NCBI RefSeq assembly: GCF_002243045.1
Contig: NZ_MBKP01000004.1
Coordinates: 1 to 64,000, forward strand
Reading direction: 5' to 3'
DNA length: 64,000 nucleotides
Source of the DNA: Methanolobus psychrotolerans
GTDB lineage: Archaea > Halobacteriota > Methanosarcinia > Methanosarcinales > Methanosarcinaceae
The notes below the pieces were generated by a model, which was not told the origin of the DNA, did no database searches, and saw nothing but the letters and a program-made list of their open reading frames with translations. Both the position numbers and the translations under genes were made by a program. Of this stretch, positions 28,740 to 37,538 are shown in pieces (positions within the stretch are counted from its first letter, which is position 1; every line of letters begins with the position of its first letter).

Positions 28740-29957
28740 TTAATATTTTGCATTCTCTTTAGCCATTTCACCAAGCTTGTAGCCGATATCACGGCAAGCT
28801 TTTTTATCTTCTTCATAAGGTCTGAATTTAACCTGCATACTTTCCATGGCAAGTTCGAATTTTCCGCTTTCCAGCTCCTTCTCCATTCCCTTTACAGCCC
28901 CGCCGCCCCATCCGTAAGAGCCGAACAGGAAGTATTTCTTGCCTTTGGGTCGCAGTCCTTTCATATAACTGAGAAATCCGGACACGGTAAAGAACATTCC
29001 GTTGTTCATTGTGGGTGAGCCTATCGCAACGACCGGTGCATCCATGAGTTCTTTCATGGTCATGCTCCAGTCGTTCTTACGCAGGTGCCTCAGACGCACT
29101 TCTACCCCTGTTGCTCTTGCCCCTTCAACTATCTCCATAGCCATTTTCTCAGTGCTTCCCCACATGGTGTCATAGATAACAAGCACTTTCGGGACAGTAT
29201 CTCCCCTTGCCCACTTTTCATATGCTTCCACAATTTCCTGTATACTCTTTCTCCAGATCACTCCATGTGCTGGGGCTATCATTTGAGGGTTGACATCAAG
29301 CTTTTTCAGCTTGTCAACATATTTGAGTACCTGTGATCCGAATGGTAACAGGATGTTAGCATAGTATATGCCCGCATCTGCCATTACATCATCAACTTCA
29401 TCATCAAAACGTTTTGAGGTTGCAATATGCTGCCCGAAAGCATCATTTGAAAAGAGAATCCTGTCCTCTTTCACATATGTCTGCATGCTGTCCGGCCAGT
29501 GCAGCATAGTGGCTTCTATGAACATTAAAGTCCTTTTACCAAGGCTCAATTCATCCCCGGTCCCAACTATTCGCAGATCCCATTTGTCAAAACCTTCCTC
29601 TTTGTAATACTCGGAAAGTCCTGTCTGTCCTTTGGATGATGCAAACAACTTTGCGTTGGGCGCAATGTCCATAATAGTTGATATGGAGCTAGAATGGTCC
29701 ATCTCAACGTGGTTGGAAATAACATAGTCTATCTTTGCTGGATCGACTATCTGTCTGATGCGTTTGAGCATCTCTTCTGCAAAAGGTGCTTTTACAGTAT
29801 CTACTAGGGCAATTTTCTCATCAACTATAAGGTATGCGTTATAACTGCCACCTTTTGGTGTTTCGTATCCGTGGAAATCACGCAGGTTCCAGTCAACTAC
29901 ACCTACCCAGTATATACCTTTGGCCAGCTCGAGTGGTTTGTAATCATCCATAAACAT
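28740..29957 (-). CDS. fprA: F420H2 oxidase / FprA-type A-type flavoprotein
   Basis: SNHVEMDHSSSI metallo-beta-lactamase, flavodoxin VLVIYDTMWGSTEKMA. Confidence 0.93.
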   Translation of the reverse strand: MFMDDYKPLELAKGIYWVGVVDWNLRDFHGYETPKGGSYNAYLIVDEKIALVDTVKAPFAEEMLKRIRQIVDPAKIDYVISNHVEMDHSSSISTIMDIAPNAKLFASSKGQTGLSEYYKEEGFDKWDLRIVGTGDELSLGKRTLMFIEATMLHWPDSMQTYVKEDRILFSNDAFGQHIATSKRFDDEVDDVMADAGIYYANILLPFGSQVLKYVDKLKKLDVNPQMIAPAHGVIWRKSIQEIVEAYEKWARGDTVPKVLVIYDTMWGSTEKMAMEIVEGARATGVEVRLRHLRKNDWSMTMKELMDAPVVAIGSPTMNNGMFFTVSGFLSYMKGLRPKGKKYFLFGSYGWGGGAVKGMEKELESGKFELAMESMQVKFRPYEEDKKACRDIGYKLGEMAKENAKY

Positions 29958-29966
29958 CCCTCTGAT

Positions 29967-30455
29967 TCATGTCTGCATTCTGAATTCAGTTGCAGCGCCA
30001 AGTAACTCGTCAATTATCATGTAATGACCTCTTTCAGCAGCAGCCACCTTCTCAAAGAATGCTCGCTGCTCATCATCCTCTGCTCTTTTTGCAAGCTCTG
30101 TATAGAAATATTCGCTCTTGTGTTCAAACCGTAAGGCTGCAAGAAGTATGCCTACTTCTTCGAGTTTCTCATCTGAGAATTCCTCGGTGAAAGATGCCTC
30201 GAATTTAGGATAAATGAATTCAACTTCCGGGATCTGCTTGCTTTCCCTATATTGCATAAGGTAACCGGAATGTTTTTTCTCTTCGTCGGCAAGGAATATG
30301 TATAATTTGCTTGCAGTCTCGTTCTTCATAACGGATGCTTTTTCGCTGTAATACTCCATCCCCTCCTCTTCAAGTTCTATTGCCAGAGCAATTGCTTGGT
30401 CTATTGATTTTAGTTTATCCAGCTCTTCTGCGATCTCGTGTAGTATATCTTTCAT
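29967..30455 (-). CDS. Ferritin-like/rubrerythrin-domain protein
   Basis: AIALAIELEEEGMEYYSEKA, EKKHSGYLMQY, EKVAAAERGHYMIID. Confidence 0.85.
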   Translation of the reverse strand: MKDILHEIAEELDKLKSIDQAIALAIELEEEGMEYYSEKASVMKNETASKLYIFLADEEKKHSGYLMQYRESKQIPEVEFIYPKFEASFTEEFSDEKLEEVGILLAALRFEHKSEYFYTELAKRAEDDEQRAFFEKVAAAERGHYMIIDELLGAATEFRMQT

Positions 30456-30727: not shown

Positions 30728-31831
30728 ATGGACAAAATCAAGATCGCAATTGCAGGCATTGGTAATTGTGCAAGCTCTCTGATTCAAGGCATTGAATATT
30801 ACAAAAACAAAGAGGAAAAAGATGCAGTAGGTCTTATGCACTGGGATATTGGTGGGTACAGGCCATTTGACATTGAAGTAGTTGCTGCCTTTGATATTGA
30901 CGAAAGGAAAGTTGGAAGGGATGTTTCGGAGGCCATTTTTGCACCACCTAACTGTACGGCGGTATTTTGCCATGAGGTGCCTAAAACCGGTGCAATCGTC
31001 AAAATGGGGTGTATTCTTGACGGTGTTTCTGAACATATGCTAAATTACAGCGATAACCGGAGATTTATTCCTTCCACTGAAAAGGAAGCCAACAAAGAAT
31101 TTGTAGTGAATGAATTGAAGGAGTCAGGTGCAGATGTATTACTTAATTATCTTCCTGTAGGCTCTGAACAAGCCACCTGTTTCTATGCTGAATGTGCCCT
31201 TGATGCAGGAGTTGCATACATTAACAATATGCCTGTTTTCATCGTAAGCAATCCAGAATGGGCTGAGAAATTCAAGAAAAAAGGTATTCCCATAATAGGT
31301 GATGACATAAAGGCTCAGCTTGGTGCAACTATCACCCACAGGACCCTTGTAGACCTCTTCCGCAAACGTGGTGTCAAACTCGAGAGGACATACCAGCTTA
31401 ACACGGGGGGAAACACTGACTTCCTTAACATGCTTAACAGGAGCAGGCTTGCTTCAAAGAAGGAGTCAAAGACCGAAGCGGTCCAGTCCGTAGCTGGTCA
31501 GAGAATGGACGATGACAACATCCACGTCGGTCCTAGTGACTACGTGCCATGGCAGAACGATAACAAAGTCTGCTTCCTTCGAATGGAAGGTAAGCTTTTC
31601 GGCGATGTGCCTATGAACCTGGAGCTTCGTCTCTCAGTAGAGGATTCTCCAAACTCCGCTGGCGTGGTCATTGATGCTATCCGGTGCTGTAAGATTGCCC
31701 TTGAAAGGGGTATCGGTGGCATTTTGTACTCTCCGTCATCCTATTTCATGAAGCATCCCCCAAAGCAGTTCACAGATGATGAAGCCTATGTGATGACAGA
31801 TGAGTTCATCAGAGGCCTGCGCGATAATTGA
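30728..31831 (+). CDS. myo-inositol-1-phosphate synthase
   Basis: IAIAGIGNCASSLIQGIEYY, GDDIKAQLGATITHRTLVDLF, NTGGNTDFLNML. Confidence 0.93.
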   Translation: MDKIKIAIAGIGNCASSLIQGIEYYKNKEEKDAVGLMHWDIGGYRPFDIEVVAAFDIDERKVGRDVSEAIFAPPNCTAVFCHEVPKTGAIVKMGCILDGVSEHMLNYSDNRRFIPSTEKEANKEFVVNELKESGADVLLNYLPVGSEQATCFYAECALDAGVAYINNMPVFIVSNPEWAEKFKKKGIPIIGDDIKAQLGATITHRTLVDLFRKRGVKLERTYQLNTGGNTDFLNMLNRSRLASKKESKTEAVQSVAGQRMDDDNIHVGPSDYVPWQNDNKVCFLRMEGKLFGDVPMNLELRLSVEDSPNSAGVVIDAIRCCKIALERGIGGILYSPSSYFMKHPPKQFTDDEAYVMTDEFIRGLRDN

Positions 31832-31844
31832 ACCGGAATTATAC

Positions 31845-32672
31845 ATGACCTTTGATGCTGCCGGAAGAACACGCAGAATATATGGAGTTGATTTCAGTGG
31901 TGCAAAGGATGCAGGCCGCAAAATATGGATAAGTGAATGTGTTGCAGAGGGAGATGCACTCTTCCTTCTCAACTGTTATCCTGCATATGACCTTGTTCCT
32001 GGTAAGTTCAAAGATCGTGAGCTTTGTCTTTCTGCTTTGTGTGACCTGATTGTTTCAAGCAGAAATTCTGTTTTCGGGATGGATTTTCCTTTCAGTCTTC
32101 CGGAACAATTGATGTCCGGAAAGGACTGGTATTCTTTTGTATCTGATTTTCCTTGTGAGTATCACTCTGCAGACGAATTTCGAAAGGCTATGCAGGCAGC
32201 AGGGGGGAATACTGAGTTAAAGCGTCTGACAGATGTTGAGGTCAAAGCACCTTTTAGCGTGTATAATCTCTGGGTATTCAAACAGACATATCATGGGATT
32301 TGTGATGTTGTGCGTCCTCTTGTAATGGCTGGTAAAGTCTGTGTACTGCCAATGCAGAAACCACTGAATGATAAACCGTGGCTTATGGAGATATGTCCGG
32401 CATCAACACTAAAAAGTGAGGGCCTGTACATTACTTATAAAGGCAGGTCTGAAAAAGAGAAAAAGACAAGAGAACATATCCTGGATGAAATGCTCTGCAA
32501 AGGAATAACTATCCCGGAAATCCTCAGGGAAGAAATCATACATAATAAGGATGGGGATGCCCTGGACAGTTTCATTGCGGCATATGCCACATTCCGGTCT
32601 GTCAGGAAACTGGGCGATATAGTTGGCAATCTGCCCGATATCTATCTCCGGGAGGGTTATACTTTCTTCTAG
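31845..32672 (+). CDS. DUF429 family protein
   Basis: RIYGVDFSGAKDAGRKIWISE, DALDSFIAAYATFR; start at 31845 is approximate. Confidence 0.7.
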   Translation: MTFDAAGRTRRIYGVDFSGAKDAGRKIWISECVAEGDALFLLNCYPAYDLVPGKFKDRELCLSALCDLIVSSRNSVFGMDFPFSLPEQLMSGKDWYSFVSDFPCEYHSADEFRKAMQAAGGNTELKRLTDVEVKAPFSVYNLWVFKQTYHGICDVVRPLVMAGKVCVLPMQKPLNDKPWLMEICPASTLKSEGLYITYKGRSEKEKKTREHILDEMLCKGITIPEILREEIIHNKDGDALDSFIAAYATFRSVRKLGDIVGNLPDIYLREGYTFF

Positions 32673-33214
32673 TCCTTACTGACGCCAAGTAATTCATAGA
32701 TGTCTTCAGGTTTTTTGAGTACAGTTATGTTCTCCATCTGCATGAGTTTCTCGGTATTGGATACATCTACTTCACGCATTTTTAATTCCATCACACGTCC
32801 TTCCGGGGATACTGTCTTCAATGTGCCTCTTTTCTGGTCAACAGGAAGGATGTAAATGGGTGTTTTTCCCTTTGCGGTTTGTGCAACAACGTTTGTGACA
32901 AGGGTATCTGCAATGCCGTATACAATCTTAGCCACGGTGTTTGAGGTTGTAGGGGCAATGATAAGGGCATCGTAATATCCTACTTGCAAGGGGCCAGCGA
33001 TGAAAGGAGAATTAGGTCCTGCATCAGTCTTGAAATTAGGAAAGTCCTTTTGTATATCATTCCACATACGGTACCATTTCATGACGGTTTCGCCTTCCTT
33101 GGACAAGAATACCATTATCTCGATGTTGCTCTTCTTCTTGATATCGACCATTACGTCGTATGTTTCTTTTATCAGGTCTCCTGACCCGGTAATTCCCCAT
33201 GCTATTCTTTTCAT
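32669..33214 (-). CDS. Archaeoflavoprotein AfpA / DmrX-like flavoprotein
   Basis: IAWGITGSGDLIKETYDVM, ALIIAPTTSNTVAKIVYGIADTLVTNV. Confidence 0.82.
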   Translation of the reverse strand: MKRIAWGITGSGDLIKETYDVMVDIKKKSNIEIMVFLSKEGETVMKWYRMWNDIQKDFPNFKTDAGPNSPFIAGPLQVGYYDALIIAPTTSNTVAKIVYGIADTLVTNVVAQTAKGKTPIYILPVDQKRGTLKTVSPEGRVMELKMREVDVSNTEKLMQMENITVLKKPEDIYELLGVSKD

Positions 33215-33243
33215 AATCCTTCCTCACCTCATGTATAGCTTAA

Positions 33244-33942
33244 TTAATATCCTATCAACGATTCCTTGTTGATCTTGCTATCGGATATTTGTATATTGTG
33301 TAGCATCTCCATCATTGAATCCACCATCGGGGGTGGCCCGCAGACGTAGAATACCCTCTCTGCATAATCCGGCACTTCTCTCAGGAGCAGGTTCTCACAT
33401 ATACGCTCCCGGCATCCTGTCCATTCCTCTGAGGCTCTTGTGAGGGTATTGAACACTTTCAGTCCGGGATTCTTCACTTTCATTTCTTCGAGTTCTTCTA
33501 CAAATATCATGTCCTGCTCAGTCTTGTCACTGCATATCAGCATAATATCCGTACTGAGCTTCATATCAGTGCAACATTTACATATGCTGATCATCGGGGT
33601 GATGCCGATTCCACCGCTCAGGAGTGCTATCTTCTCATATTCTCCTTCAAAGGTCATCTTTCCAAAAGGTCCTTTTATATCTGCGACATCTCCTGTTTCC
33701 ATGTAATCCAGCATATTGGAGAATTCATGACCTGTAAGCTTCTTTGTAAATTCAATATGGTCTTTTTCAGTGGGACTGCTTGACAGGCTGAACGCCTTGC
33801 TCATCTTTTTCCCGTTGGCATTGAGTGCGACTGTGATGTATTGCCCTGCTTTGTAAACAAATCCATCAGGCCTTCTGAACCGGAAGCTCTTCACATTGTA
33901 TGCTCTTTTTATTATTTCGGTTACAGGTTCTTCAAACTCCAG
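33244..33942 (-). CDS. FNR-like FAD/NAD(P)-binding oxidoreductase, probable CTG start
   Basis: FKPGQYI-like KAGQYITVALN, AFSLSSSP, GDVADIKGPFGKM, LLSGGIGITPMISI, YVCGPPPMVDSM; AGGAGGTG 5' of CTG at 33942. Confidence 0.85.
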   Translation of the reverse strand: MEFEEPVTEIIKRAYNVKSFRFRRPDGFVYKAGQYITVALNANGKKMSKAFSLSSSPTEKDHIEFTKKLTGHEFSNMLDYMETGDVADIKGPFGKMTFEGEYEKIALLSGGIGITPMISICKCCTDMKLSTDIMLICSDKTEQDMIFVEELEEMKVKNPGLKVFNTLTRASEEWTGCRERICENLLLREVPDYAERVFYVCGPPPMVDSMMEMLHNIQISDSKINKESLIGY

Positions 33943-33953
33943 GCTTGCACCTC

Positions 33954-34574
33954 CTACCGGATATTTTTCATTGTGATGGCAGTCTTCATTAGTTTGTTGA
34001 TGGTTCTGTGAAGGCTTCGGATCCCTTCTGAATCTTCAGCAACTCCTTCAGCACCCTTGTCCTTTGACCAGAAAGTTCCTCCCAGGTTCGATCCAAAGGA
34101 GCCGCCTCCAACGGGTATCATCTCACTGATAACATAAAAGTTGATAATTGCCTGTATTGCCGGTTCCTGCCCTCCGATCCTGTCTCCGCCAACTGCAGTT
34201 GCGGCACCTACTTTGTTCATGAAGGCCTTCGGGTCACGGGCAACAACCGCACGGCACCGGTCAATTATGGTTTTTGTCTGGGCACTTAAAGTGCCTTGAT
34301 ATACGGGAGTGCCAATTATCCAGGCATCAGCCCAGAGCATTTTGTCATAGAGCTCCACAAGGTCATCCTTGTGAATGCATCCTTCTTTTTTACGGACACA
34401 GTAATCGCAATGAATGCAGAATTTCATGTTCTTGCCACTAGCAGAAAAATATTCAATTTCTGCACCATATTTTTCATGTGCGTATCTAAGAGCTTCATTG
34501 ACAATATAATCTGTAGATTTCTTCCGGGGGCTGCCTGAGATTCCCAGTAGCCGAATGCTGGTGTCATCGGACAT
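33954..34574 (-). CDS. Iron-sulfur flavoprotein (Isf-type)
   Basis: GISGSPRKKSTDYIV flavodoxin fold; compact Cys motif CIHCDYCVRKKEGC. Confidence 0.87.
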   Translation of the reverse strand: MSDDTSIRLLGISGSPRKKSTDYIVNEALRYAHEKYGAEIEYFSASGKNMKFCIHCDYCVRKKEGCIHKDDLVELYDKMLWADAWIIGTPVYQGTLSAQTKTIIDRCRAVVARDPKAFMNKVGAATAVGGDRIGGQEPAIQAIINFYVISEMIPVGGGSFGSNLGGTFWSKDKGAEGVAEDSEGIRSLHRTINKLMKTAITMKNIR

Positions 34575-34594
34575 TTATGGCACTCCGTTTTGTC

Positions 34595-34786
34595 TTAGTC
34601 CAATGTTATTGCTTCTGTGGGACAGGCATCAACACAGTTGCCGCATTCCACACAGTCATCAGGGCGTGCGATGACGGATTTGAGTTCTCCGTTCTCGTCT
34701 GCTTCAATGTCTATAACATCAGTTGGGCATGATTCAGAACATGCACCTATTCCTTCACATTTGTTCTTATCTACCTTTGGTGGCAT
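34595..34786 (-). CDS. 2[4Fe-4S] ferredoxin
   Basis: CEGIGACSESCP and CVECGNCVDACP. Confidence 0.93.
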   Translation of the reverse strand: MPPKVDKNKCEGIGACSESCPTDVIDIEADENGELKSVIARPDDCVECGNCVDACPTEAITLD

Positions 34787-34801
34787 TTTTCATTTCCTCC
34801 T

Positions 34802-36208
34802 TTATTTTCTGTTAATGTACATCCTCAGGATAAGGGCGATTGTAGCAGTAAAGGTGCTAAATCCTGGCGTTGGCTCTGTTCCCTCTTTAGGAGATGCATC
34901 AGGATGGTATATTGTATTGGAAGCTTCGTTCATCTGTATTACAGGTACTTCATAAGTTCCCTTCTCAAACAGTTTATCGATAAGTTCCTGGGATGCTGAC
35001 CTGTAATTCAGGCTGGTTTCCACCTTCAGCGGATAAACAACATCTTCGGAGAGGATGAATGTGTGCTTTTCCTCCACAGTTTTCTCTGGTCCTATCCTGT
35101 TATCCTCCAGTACCCTGTCAGCCAGCCAGAAGCTTTCGGTTGCGGTACCTTCACTGTCGCCGAGTACATTATTGTAAATTCTCTTTGCTGACTTGATACT
35201 TCCCTCGGTGTCAAGGGTTCCGGCACTGTAAATCTCATGACCTTCAGCGTCTGTGACTACCATTTCAAGCCATATTTGCCTTATCTCGGAAACCCCGGTT
35301 GGTATATTGTGCCCGGCTCCAGAATTTGTGATGGATACTTCAATAATTACCTCTTCTCCTGCGGATGCAACTTCCGGTGCTCTTACCTCTAGGGTAGCAG
35401 CGTTCTGAAGTCTTTCAGTAGCCATTTTAGCTACGTCTTCAGCACCAAATATCATGGGGATGAATGCATTTCCACCCGTTATTGCATGTAATGAGATGTG
35501 TTCTCTTTTAGGGGCACCTGACCCCGAGCGTCCGGGATTTGCTTTATACTCTGTGATGCCTTCTGTCATATGGCAATCCTGGCAGACCACATTGTCTTTG
35601 CCATACTGGCTGTCCTTCCAGGTTGAATACGTGTCATCTATAACAAGTCCGTTTACGGGATGTATCACTTCATGGCACATGCCGCAATATTCTGCCTGGG
35701 TGTATAGCTTGAGGTATTCAGAATCATGATATGCAGATTTTGAGTCTTCAAATGGTCCCCATTTAATATCTCCGGGGGTAATTATGAAGGGTGCATTGCC
35801 TATTCCGTCACTTCCTGATATTACATGGCAGAAATCACACTGTACTCCAAGCTTGGAAATGTCACTCATTCCTGATCCGTCTATGGGTGGTATCTCACCT
35901 GATACAACGCCTATAGGTGTGTGGCAACGAGCACAAAATTCGTCTACAAGTCCGTCAGTGTCTATGCTTGCAACTTTTACTTCTTCCAGGTAGAAAGGGT
36001 CCAGATATGCATTGAAATGCATTGTGCCTTCCCATTGTCCATAAATAATGGCATGGCATTGACGACATCTACTCTCATATGTAAAGTCATCAGCAGAATA
36101 TTCCCCAAACTTTGTAGCTTCTGCTGCAGCTGTAAAACTGCTGACCACAGATGCTAATATGATGGCTGCCAGTAAAAACAGCCCCCATTTTACACTAGTC
36201 CCCTTCAT
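34802..36208 (-). CDS. Exported pentaheme cytochrome c with PGF-CTERM-like tail
   Basis: Signal peptide; CRQCH, CARCH, CDFCH, CGMCH, CQDCH; C-term PTPGFSTFTATIALILRMYINRK. Confidence 0.9.
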   Translation of the reverse strand: MKGTSVKWGLFLLAAIILASVVSSFTAAAEATKFGEYSADDFTYESRCRQCHAIIYGQWEGTMHFNAYLDPFYLEEVKVASIDTDGLVDEFCARCHTPIGVVSGEIPPIDGSGMSDISKLGVQCDFCHVISGSDGIGNAPFIITPGDIKWGPFEDSKSAYHDSEYLKLYTQAEYCGMCHEVIHPVNGLVIDDTYSTWKDSQYGKDNVVCQDCHMTEGITEYKANPGRSGSGAPKREHISLHAITGGNAFIPMIFGAEDVAKMATERLQNAATLEVRAPEVASAGEEVIIEVSITNSGAGHNIPTGVSEIRQIWLEMVVTDAEGHEIYSAGTLDTEGSIKSAKRIYNNVLGDSEGTATESFWLADRVLEDNRIGPEKTVEEKHTFILSEDVVYPLKVETSLNYRSASQELIDKLFEKGTYEVPVIQMNEASNTIYHPDASPKEGTEPTPGFSTFTATIALILRMYINRK

Positions 36209-36285
36209 TTCCTATCCTCAGTAGCATATGGATGTCAAATTAAATAAGCTCAAAAGGGATCAGACAGGTCCCTTAACAGATTTTC

Positions 36286-36657
36286 TTACTTCAGCAGTTT
36301 CAATGCATCTCTGCATGCAGCAACTGCAGGAGCACCAGATGTTATGAATATAACATCCATTGTCTCCATTATTTCTTCTTTAGTTGCTCCGTTTTTCAGT
36401 GCACTCTTCATCTGTGATGCAACACAGCGTTCGCACTGCTTTGATGCAACGACCGCAAGAGCCATCAGTATCTTTGTTTTAGCAGGCAGTGCTCCGTCAC
36501 TGAGTATCTTGTTATTGCACATATTGTATTTGTGAAGGAATTCCGGTTCAAGCTCTCCAAGGATTTCCAGTATCTGAGGTGTGAATCCTAATTTTCCGGA
36601 CATGTCATCAATGATCTCTCTGTGTCCGCATCCTCTTCCTTTATTTTCTCCGCACAT
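36286..36657 (-). CDS. Carboxymuconolactone decarboxylase (AhpD-like) family protein
   Basis: [41 protein letters not shown]. Confidence 0.88.
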
Positions 36658-36692
36658 AATTTTCCTCCTTATTGTTACGTATGACTGTATAA

Positions 36693-36911
36693 TTAGTCAA
36701 ATGCATCTTCAATCGTCTGGTTAAAACAGTAGTGACACATGATCCTTGGCAATCCTTTTGGAAGCCTTTTAACATGAGGCGGCTGTCCTACTGATACAGG
36801 AAGTTCGAGTTCCTTTACATGTTCGGTACAAAGACCTTTTCCGCAAGTAATACATACACAAGTTGCTTCAGTGTCTTTCGCTTCTTCCATGCAGTCATAA
36901 CATTTCATCAT
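36693..36911 (-). CDS. DUF2180 family Cys-rich small protein
   Basis: [31 protein letters not shown]...IMCHYCF. Confidence 0.75.
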
Positions 36912-36919
36912 GATATCAC

Positions 36920-37177
36920 CTAATAGTTCTCTACAAGTGCCTTATGGCAGGGCATGCAGAGCACTTTCTTCCAGTGCTGGACATCTTTGTAATCGCAGGC
37001 TATTCCCATGCCGCACTTTAGTTTTATGCTGTATTCACCTTCCCATACGGGTGTTTCTTCCCTGACCAGGTGTTCCTTACAGACACCTCTCCCACAAATT
37101 ATGCAGATAGCCAATGTATCACTATCTTTCCCATTTTTTGAACATTCATAGCATTTCATGATGGTCACTCTATTCAA
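36920..37177 (-). CDS. DUF2180 family Cys-rich small protein (paralog)
   Basis: MKCYECSKNGKDSDTLAICIICGRGVCKEHLV...VLCMPCH. Confidence 0.75.
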   Translation of the reverse strand: MNRVTIMKCYECSKNGKDSDTLAICIICGRGVCKEHLVREETPVWEGEYSIKLKCGMGIACDYKDVQHWKKVLCMPCHKALVENY

Positions 37178-37538
37178 AATTCAATTTAGTCTCAAACAGT
37201 TCTCTTATTTGTTTCATATCTTTGCAGATATGTGAATGCTTATCCTGAGTAATAACTCAGTAACTCCCAACACCCTCACCTCCTGCAAATATGAACAATA
37301 TGTGAACATTATTTCTTCTGACATTTACTGGATATATCTGTAACGGTAAATGCATGTTCATTTTATACATAGTGTTAGTTTCTAGCAGTTCTTCATGATA
37401 TTACTGGCAGGCCTGATCATTTGCACTTTTGGGAGTATTTTAGTCTTGCTCTTTGCGAATTATATTTCTATGTTCTGCCAGTATCAAACCAACAAAGTTT
37501 TAAATATGTATAGATACCTGATTAGCAACACACTTTAG

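Follow-up and report, generated by a model that had tools for sequence, protein, structure and literature searches.

The DNA considered here is a stretch of 64,000 nucleotides from Methanolobus psychrotolerans (assembly GCF_002243045.1, contig NZ_MBKP01000004.1, positions 1 to 64,000), referred to below as the window. Its minus strand carries a compact block of eight open reading frames between 32669 and 37177, neighbours of which overlap, abut or lie no more than 77 nt apart. Genes for a ferritin-like protein and an FprA-type oxidase are found on the same strand as the block, with two opposite-strand genes between them and the last gene of the block, that for AfpA. Judging from its gene content and order, the block is very probably the Methanolobus form of a Methanosarcinaceae island, partly published already, that serves defence against oxygen and reactive oxygen species together with redox repair. 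In the direction of reading, the genes are as follows.

36920..37159, minus strand: DUF2180 protein a, a zinc-finger-like CxxC protein of 79 residues (PF09947, 1.2e-22)
36693..36911, minus strand: DUF2180 protein b, 72 residues (PF09947, 3e-21)
36286..36657, minus strand: MdrA-like protein of CMD/AhpD fold with a CxxC motif (PF02627, 3e-19), the syntenic orthologue of Methanosarcina acetivorans MA3736 (by synteny with locus L068)
34802..36208, minus strand: exported pentaheme c-type cytochrome, PHC type, of 468 residues, with a five-heme domain, an immunoglobulin (Ig)-like domain and a PGF-type C-terminal anchor
34595..34786, minus strand: seven-cysteine ferredoxin (Fer4 match), predicted to be of the 3Fe/4Fe type
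33954..34574, minus strand: Isf-type iron–sulfur flavoprotein (PF03358, FMN_red, 1.2e-32) with the cysteine spacing CX2CX2CX6C
33244..33942, minus strand: FNR-like FAD/NAD(P) reductase (PF00970/PF00175) with a CTG start
32669..33214, minus strand: archaeoflavoprotein AfpA (TIGR02699, 272.6 bits, above the cut-off of 192.45)
29967..30455, minus strand: ferritin-like/rubrerythrin-family protein (PF02915, over the cut-off), found directly after AfpA in Methanosarcina loci
28740..29957, minus strand: FprA-type flavodiiron F420H2 oxidase (O2 to water), homologous to the FprA/FpaA-type reading frame that ends the M. acetivorans-type block of L068

An earlier reading of the letters without database searches, which we call the sequence-only reading, had listed eight minus-strand genes in this order with short gaps between them. 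Inspection of the open reading frames bore this out, and the families that it named (two DUF2180, CMD/AhpD, 5x CXXCH cytochrome, Isf, FNR-like, AfpA) were upheld by Pfam and NCBIfam. The ferredoxin had been described as 2[4Fe-4S], but the two CxxCxxCxxxCP motifs with eight cysteines that this implies are not present; there are only seven ligand cysteines. Motif I reads C-x5-C-x3-CP and its second ligand cysteine is present in no intact orthologue, Ile, Val or Ser standing there instead, so that a 3Fe/4Fe type is most likely. In one Methanolobus metagenome-assembled genome (L079, 8887–9071) the ferredoxin gene is frameshifted and the adjoining genes are intact. Isf proteins carry the compact cysteine motif CX2CX2CX4-7C, and the flavoprotein of the block has both the FMN_red fold and a spacing within this range. 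MdrA combines the CMD fold with a CxxC motif and is an Fe–S-controlled oligomer. The AhpD-like protein MA3736 of M. acetivorans is, we take it, the disulfide reductase MdrA of Lessner and Ferry (2007). The CxxC of the window protein is conserved in its orthologues, and we regard what had been called CMD/AhpD-like as MdrA-like, with a putative disulfide reductase activity. Homologues of the 28740..29957 product are ODP-flavodoxin proteins.

Two gene starts were reconsidered. For DUF2180a, ATG 37159 is most likely the start instead of TTG 37177, and in the Methanolobus comparison a conserved ribosome-binding-site-like sequence precedes this ATG. The FNR gene most likely starts at about 33942, with CTG, and not at GTG 33894, because its orthologues show TTG, CTG or ATG at this position. 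The two opposite-strand genes (30728–32672, plus strand), with AfpA on one side and the ferritin-like and FprA genes on the other, are inositol-phosphate-synthase-like and DUF429-like; this insertion is conserved in most genera except Methanosarcina.

A relative of the cytochrome was found in 100 of the 186 genomes of the order. Across the Methanosarcinaceae the order DUF2180a, DUF2180b, AhpD-like, cytochrome, (ferredoxin), Isf, (FNR), AfpA is kept in dozens of genomes from Methanolobus, Methanococcoides, Methanohalophilus, Methanomethylovorans and Methanosarcina, and a comparison on this scale therefore argues that the arrangement is not due to chance. Where the stretch examined covers that region, the block is divergent from mer–fpoF–nmnat, with few exceptions such as L062, in which mer does not adjoin it. 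Both the co-conservation in the Methanosarcinales by which the sequence-only reading proposed to check its grouping and its placement of the block beside mer–fpoF hold across the family.

The composite order for the family is DUF2180a-DUF2180b-MdrA-(SOR)-cytochrome-(TusA/DsrE/NifS genes)-(ferredoxin)-Isf-(FNR)-(Rbr)-AfpA-FtnL-FprA. In Methanosarcina and the lineage that we call f3, the AhpD-like gene is separated from the cytochrome by a desulfoferrodoxin-type superoxide reductase (SOR). In other genera, those of Methanococcoides type among them, a rubrerythrin (Rbr) with a rubredoxin domain comes after FNR and before AfpA. A ferritin-like protein and FprA, an F420H2 oxidase, come after AfpA in relatives. 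We assign an oxygen-defence theme to the island because the block of these relatives holds superoxide reductase, rubrerythrin, ferritin-like protein and FprA. The Methanolobus block has no SOR between MdrA and the cytochrome, and neither has the block of several other genera; the genome of the window carries two SOR genes at other sites. In five Methanosarcinales loci (L053, L054, L056, L035 and L070) the cytochrome is followed by TusA, DsrE-like, NifS-like and IscU/thioredoxin-reductase-fusion genes, the presence of which suggests Fe–S or sulfur repair within the island.

The island has a published counterpart. In M. acetivorans, the genes MA4664/MA3734-3743, which end in FpaA, have been described as a putative oxidative-stress operon (PMC3729527). 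In M. mazei, MM0628 is Mer and MM0633 a multiheme cytochrome (PMC4350412), which agrees with the same map because four genes stand between them, namely two for DUF2180 proteins, one AhpD-like gene and SOR. In the window, two DUF2180 genes, MdrA, the pentaheme cytochrome, Isf and AfpA follow in order, divergent from mer, and the ferritin-like and FprA genes are present at the downstream end (28740–30455), beyond the two opposite-strand genes. SOR is absent from between MdrA and the cytochrome, and for this reason we speak of a variant of the M. acetivorans cluster and not of an identical one.

The cytochrome has five CxxCH motifs, at residues 48, 92, 124, 175 and 209. An AlphaFold model (mean pLDDT 87) has only one whole-protein fold match in the Protein Data Bank, to cytochrome c552 of T. 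tepidum (5ze8; E 4.2e-20, TM-scores 0.57/0.69), which was also found by sequence (4.5e-26) with a match that spans the heme and Ig-like parts. On the modelled fold, we assign the protein to the PHC family, in which five hemes and an Ig-like domain are combined in one T. tepidum c552-like fold. The family also includes Geobacter ExtKL and proteins of cable bacteria (PMC11976967); the ExtKL model NF040886 gave a partial match (7e-17, 61 bits), which does not reach its curated cut-off of 250 bits. Among 48 aligned homologues only four His residues outside the CxxCH motifs are invariant (64, 161, 241 and 300), which leaves four distal candidates for five hemes, and it is therefore possible that one heme is open (pentacoordinate) and has no invariant His ligand. 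A pentacoordinate heme has been predicted in PHCs of cable bacteria, for which O2 reduction was suggested and which were grouped as potentially catalytic (PMC11976967).

The fold also bears on the idea that the cytochrome detoxifies other species outside the cell, such as nitrite, NO, hydroxylamine or sulfur oxyanions. PHC/c554-type folds are distantly related to cytochromes of the nitrogen and sulfur cycles (weak sequence matches to 1bvb, 4rkm and 3ubr were seen), a sulfur role has been suggested in the literature for T. tepidum c552, and TusA/DsrE/NifS genes stand within the block in some relatives. However, no nitrite, sulfite or NO genes were recognized in the island, and FprA-type proteins, which could handle NO, are F420H2 oxidases in methanogens. 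We consider this idea very unlikely.

Placement of the cytochrome at the cell surface, as the sequence-only reading had it, is well supported by sequence features: there is a signal peptide, nearly all orthologues end in a PGF/hydrophobic/basic tail, and the genome encodes archaeosortase A (ArtA, 264 bits) as well as cytochrome c assembly genes. The PGF-CTERM hidden Markov model itself gave no match to the cytochrome at E ≤ 0.01. Anchoring would be by archaeosortase.

Outside the Methanosarcinaceae, 24 loci listed as archaeal were surveyed, several with short flanks. A gene for SOR, FprA, Rbr, a ferritin-like protein or MdrA lies within 5 kb of the cytochrome in 21 of them, and one of the three loci with no such gene (L148) is placed as actinobacterial in the tree. 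The distance from SOR to the cytochrome is 58–158 nt in many of these loci; catalase, AhpC/peroxiredoxin and ferritin genes adjoin the cytochrome in ANME-1 (a lineage of anaerobic methanotrophic archaea, ANME) and Methanolliviera. In Methanoperedens, FprA is divergently adjacent to the cytochrome in all four genomes, each of which has only two or three FprA matches. We estimate the chance of FprA in a given 10-kb neighbourhood of these 2.1–2.6 Mb genomes at about 1%, the four genomes being related and not independent. SOR is upstream of the cytochrome in Methanosarcina and f3 and downstream in ANME-1, and the association of cytochrome and defence genes therefore recurs in different gene orders. 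In the tree the cytochromes of Methanoperedens and ANME-1 form a group separate from that of the Methanosarcinaceae. The loci of ANME-1/Methanophagales, Methanolliviera and Methanoperedens have no FNR and mostly no flavoproteins (Isf or AfpA occurs in a few), but keep SOR, FprA or catalase, and from these neighbourhoods the cytochrome appears to track oxygen defence independently of the flavoproteins. No account of this association came up in the open-access literature, and the pairing in ANME-1, Methanolliviera and Methanoperedens has apparently not been reported before.

The converse is seen within the family. Of the cytochrome only a C-terminal remnant is left in two Methanolobus genomes (L049 and L179), and L181 and L182 have no copy, with MdrA, Isf, FNR and AfpA retained in all four. 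Since it has been lost from several methanogens in which other block genes stayed, the cytochrome is to be seen, on this comparison, as optional in the block and not as an obligatory partner of the flavoproteins.

These losses count against a path from flavoproteins to cytochrome and so bear on extracellular electron transfer (EET), in which cytosolic NAD(P)H, ferredoxin and flavoproteins would supply the surface cytochrome and, through it, humics, Fe(III), electrodes or partner cells. The multiheme protein does face outside and bear an anchor, its family contains ExtKL, proposed to act in EET, and the transcript of its M. acetivorans orthologue MA3739 is raised on anthraquinone-2,6-disulfonate (AQDS) and in direct interspecies electron transfer (DIET). 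Yet the block encodes no transmembrane carrier that would connect its cytosolic and outside proteins, and cytochrome and flavoproteins each occur without the other. Furthermore, deletion of MA3739 left AQDS reduction, DIET and Fe(0) use unaffected, and deletion of MM0633, the one multiheme cytochrome that M. mazei has, left growth, DIET and cathode use unaffected (PMC6703419, PMC8546582, PMC10989991 and PMC6962339, taken jointly). EET as the main function was rejected on these three grounds, and we regard it as unlikely. The path from cytosolic NAD(P)H, ferredoxin and flavin to an outside heme protein that the sequence-only reading had drawn is thereby left unsupported. Of the one electron-transfer system, extracellular or detoxifying, that it proposed, the conserved redox block stands and the extracellular option falls; the detoxifying option, given in parentheses, is the one that the stress-gene context supports.

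Several observations weigh against oxygen defence as the role of the island and its cytochrome. In M. acetivorans the redox regulator MaMsvR showed no binding to these promoters (PMC3729527), and the literature gave no expression or knockout data for the cytochrome under O2 or peroxide. Among bacteria the association is weak, with defence genes at 3 of 20 loci by BLAST and a rubrerythrin beside the Aquicultor copy among those scanned; the neighbours of the bacterial copies scanned share no consistent theme. The MA3739 transcript rises 4.1-fold on AQDS and by 80% in an mmcA mutant, and the M. mazei cluster is elevated on acetate, by the account of Hovey (2005) in PMC4350412, all of which could mean a role in electron transport. 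A redox-stress response would account for the AQDS induction no less well. The increases on acetate and in the mmcA mutant, together with mer–fpoF adjoining throughout the family, would also suit a cytochrome that assists respiration as a carrier close to methanophenazine or to mer/fpo metabolism (on acetate, for instance), the stress genes being merely co-located. We consider such a carrier unlikely: the MM0633 knockout has no phenotype on methanol or acetate, and in ANME and Methanoperedens the cytochrome stands beside SOR, FprA or catalase and not beside mer–fpoF.

In our view, a defence island with the protein roles given here is probably the best explanation of the data as a whole. From gene content, co-conservation, surface features and fold we infer a relay, a repair function and an oxidant reduction. 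Inside the cell, FNR would draw electrons from NAD(P)H, and FNR, the seven-cysteine ferredoxin, Isf and AfpA would relay electrons that feed, or recycle, the O2- and peroxide-removing enzymes (FprA, rubrerythrin-type proteins and superoxide reductase), while disulfides would be repaired by MdrA. The pentaheme cytochrome, anchored by archaeosortase on the outer side of the membrane, would work independently of this cytosolic chain. It would be supplied with electrons by the membrane pool, through methanophenazine or a candidate membrane partner, and would consume O2, H2O2 or oxidized species before their entry, at the heme with no fixed distal ligand. Oxidant reduction outside the cell with membrane-pool electrons is the least certain step. 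The cytochrome probably serves to cope with oxidants and not to link the cell to acceptors outside it. That it reduces oxidants itself is a tentative proposal, to which we give somewhat less than an even chance, and the specific electron route is improbable as drawn.

If true, the proposal would pair the cytosolic SOR/FprA/rubrerythrin system with a counterpart on the outside, the cytochrome, and would account for an orphan multiheme cytochrome with no EET phenotype. MA3739/MM0633-type cytochromes have repeatedly been negative in EET tests and have no assigned function, and their genome context offers surface oxidant handling as a testable one, an alternative that covers methanogens and several ANME lineages. 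It is conceivable, though doubtful, that one kind of extracytoplasmic oxidant reductase is common to methanogenic and methanotrophic archaea. This would be a PHC-type pentaheme cytochrome, anchored by archaeosortase and with one heme left open, and would use membrane-pool electrons to reduce O2 or H2O2 on the surface of the cell. What merits further attention is that, in methanogens and ANME alike, an orphan pentaheme cytochrome of the surface recurs beside genes for the removal of oxidants. In these archaea it should not be assumed by default that a multiheme cytochrome serves EET, and the survival of oxygen by strict anaerobes bears on methane emission from oxygenated sediments.

Three noncoding features accompany the block.

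37330..37347, minus strand: promoter-like element ACCGTTACAGATATATCC, resembling a B recognition element (BRE)/TATA box, conserved almost letter for letter ahead of DUF2180a in most Methanolobus sequences
37213..37295, minus strand: structured 5' leader upstream of DUF2180a, with arms TTCATATTTGCAG and CTGCAAAGATATGAA around GGAGGTG
36252..36274, minus strand: terminator- or attenuator-like hairpin AAGGGA...TCCCTTTT with a T-run, between the MdrA and cytochrome genes

The first of these is the inferred promoter of the block. The arms of the leader are conserved in two Methanolobus groups, with one U–A to C–G change, and the leader could be a regulator of the island; it has no Rfam match, an Rfam scan of the window giving a tRNA-Cys only. 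The hairpin recurs in most Methanolobus sequences, its form kept and its letters different. In dinucleotide shuffling the copy in the window has a z value of -0.27, which is not significant, and the mean over 21 sequences is -1.9. The hairpin may split or attenuate the transcript. Because it recurs with its T-run between MdrA and the cytochrome, a single eight-gene transcript is doubtful, and the arrangement favours two or more transcript segments.

Comparison with known systems places the block closest to MA4664/MA3734-3743 of M. acetivorans (MdrA MA3736, pentaheme cytochrome MA3739, FpaA MA3743) and MM0628–MM0633 of M. mazei, which occupy the same place divergent from mer. The shared genes are two for DUF2180 proteins, MdrA, the pentaheme cytochrome, Isf and AfpA, then the ferritin-like protein and FprA. 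The Methanolobus form differs from the M. acetivorans cluster in its extra seven-cysteine ferredoxin and FNR-like reductase, in having no SOR in the block and in the inositol-phosphate-synthase-like and DUF429 genes that separate AfpA from the ferritin-like and FprA genes. Ding and Ferry are said to have reported in 2004 that AfpA of Archaeoglobus fulgidus lies near a ferredoxin gene and that ferredoxin is its likely electron donor. AfpA is near a ferredoxin gene in Methanolobus as well, but here the ferredoxin is of the seven-cysteine kind and Isf and FNR stand between the two.

With members of the PHC family (T. tepidum c552, Geobacter ExtKL, GSU2801 and sPHC of cable bacteria) the Methanolobus cytochrome has in common the five CxxCH motifs, the Ig-like domain and a conserved GHxxPTG loop. 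It differs in its archaeal PGF-type anchor, in its archaeal O2-defence context and in having no truncated hemoglobin, and it has no selenocysteine, Val306 occupying the position of Sec325 in MccSep. MmcA of M. acetivorans is likewise a surface multiheme c-type cytochrome of the Methanosarcinaceae, but has seven hemes and belongs to the Rnf operon, whereas the Methanolobus protein has five hemes and belongs to a stress island. Deletion of MmcA abolishes growth by AQDS reduction, whereas deletion of MA3739 does not.

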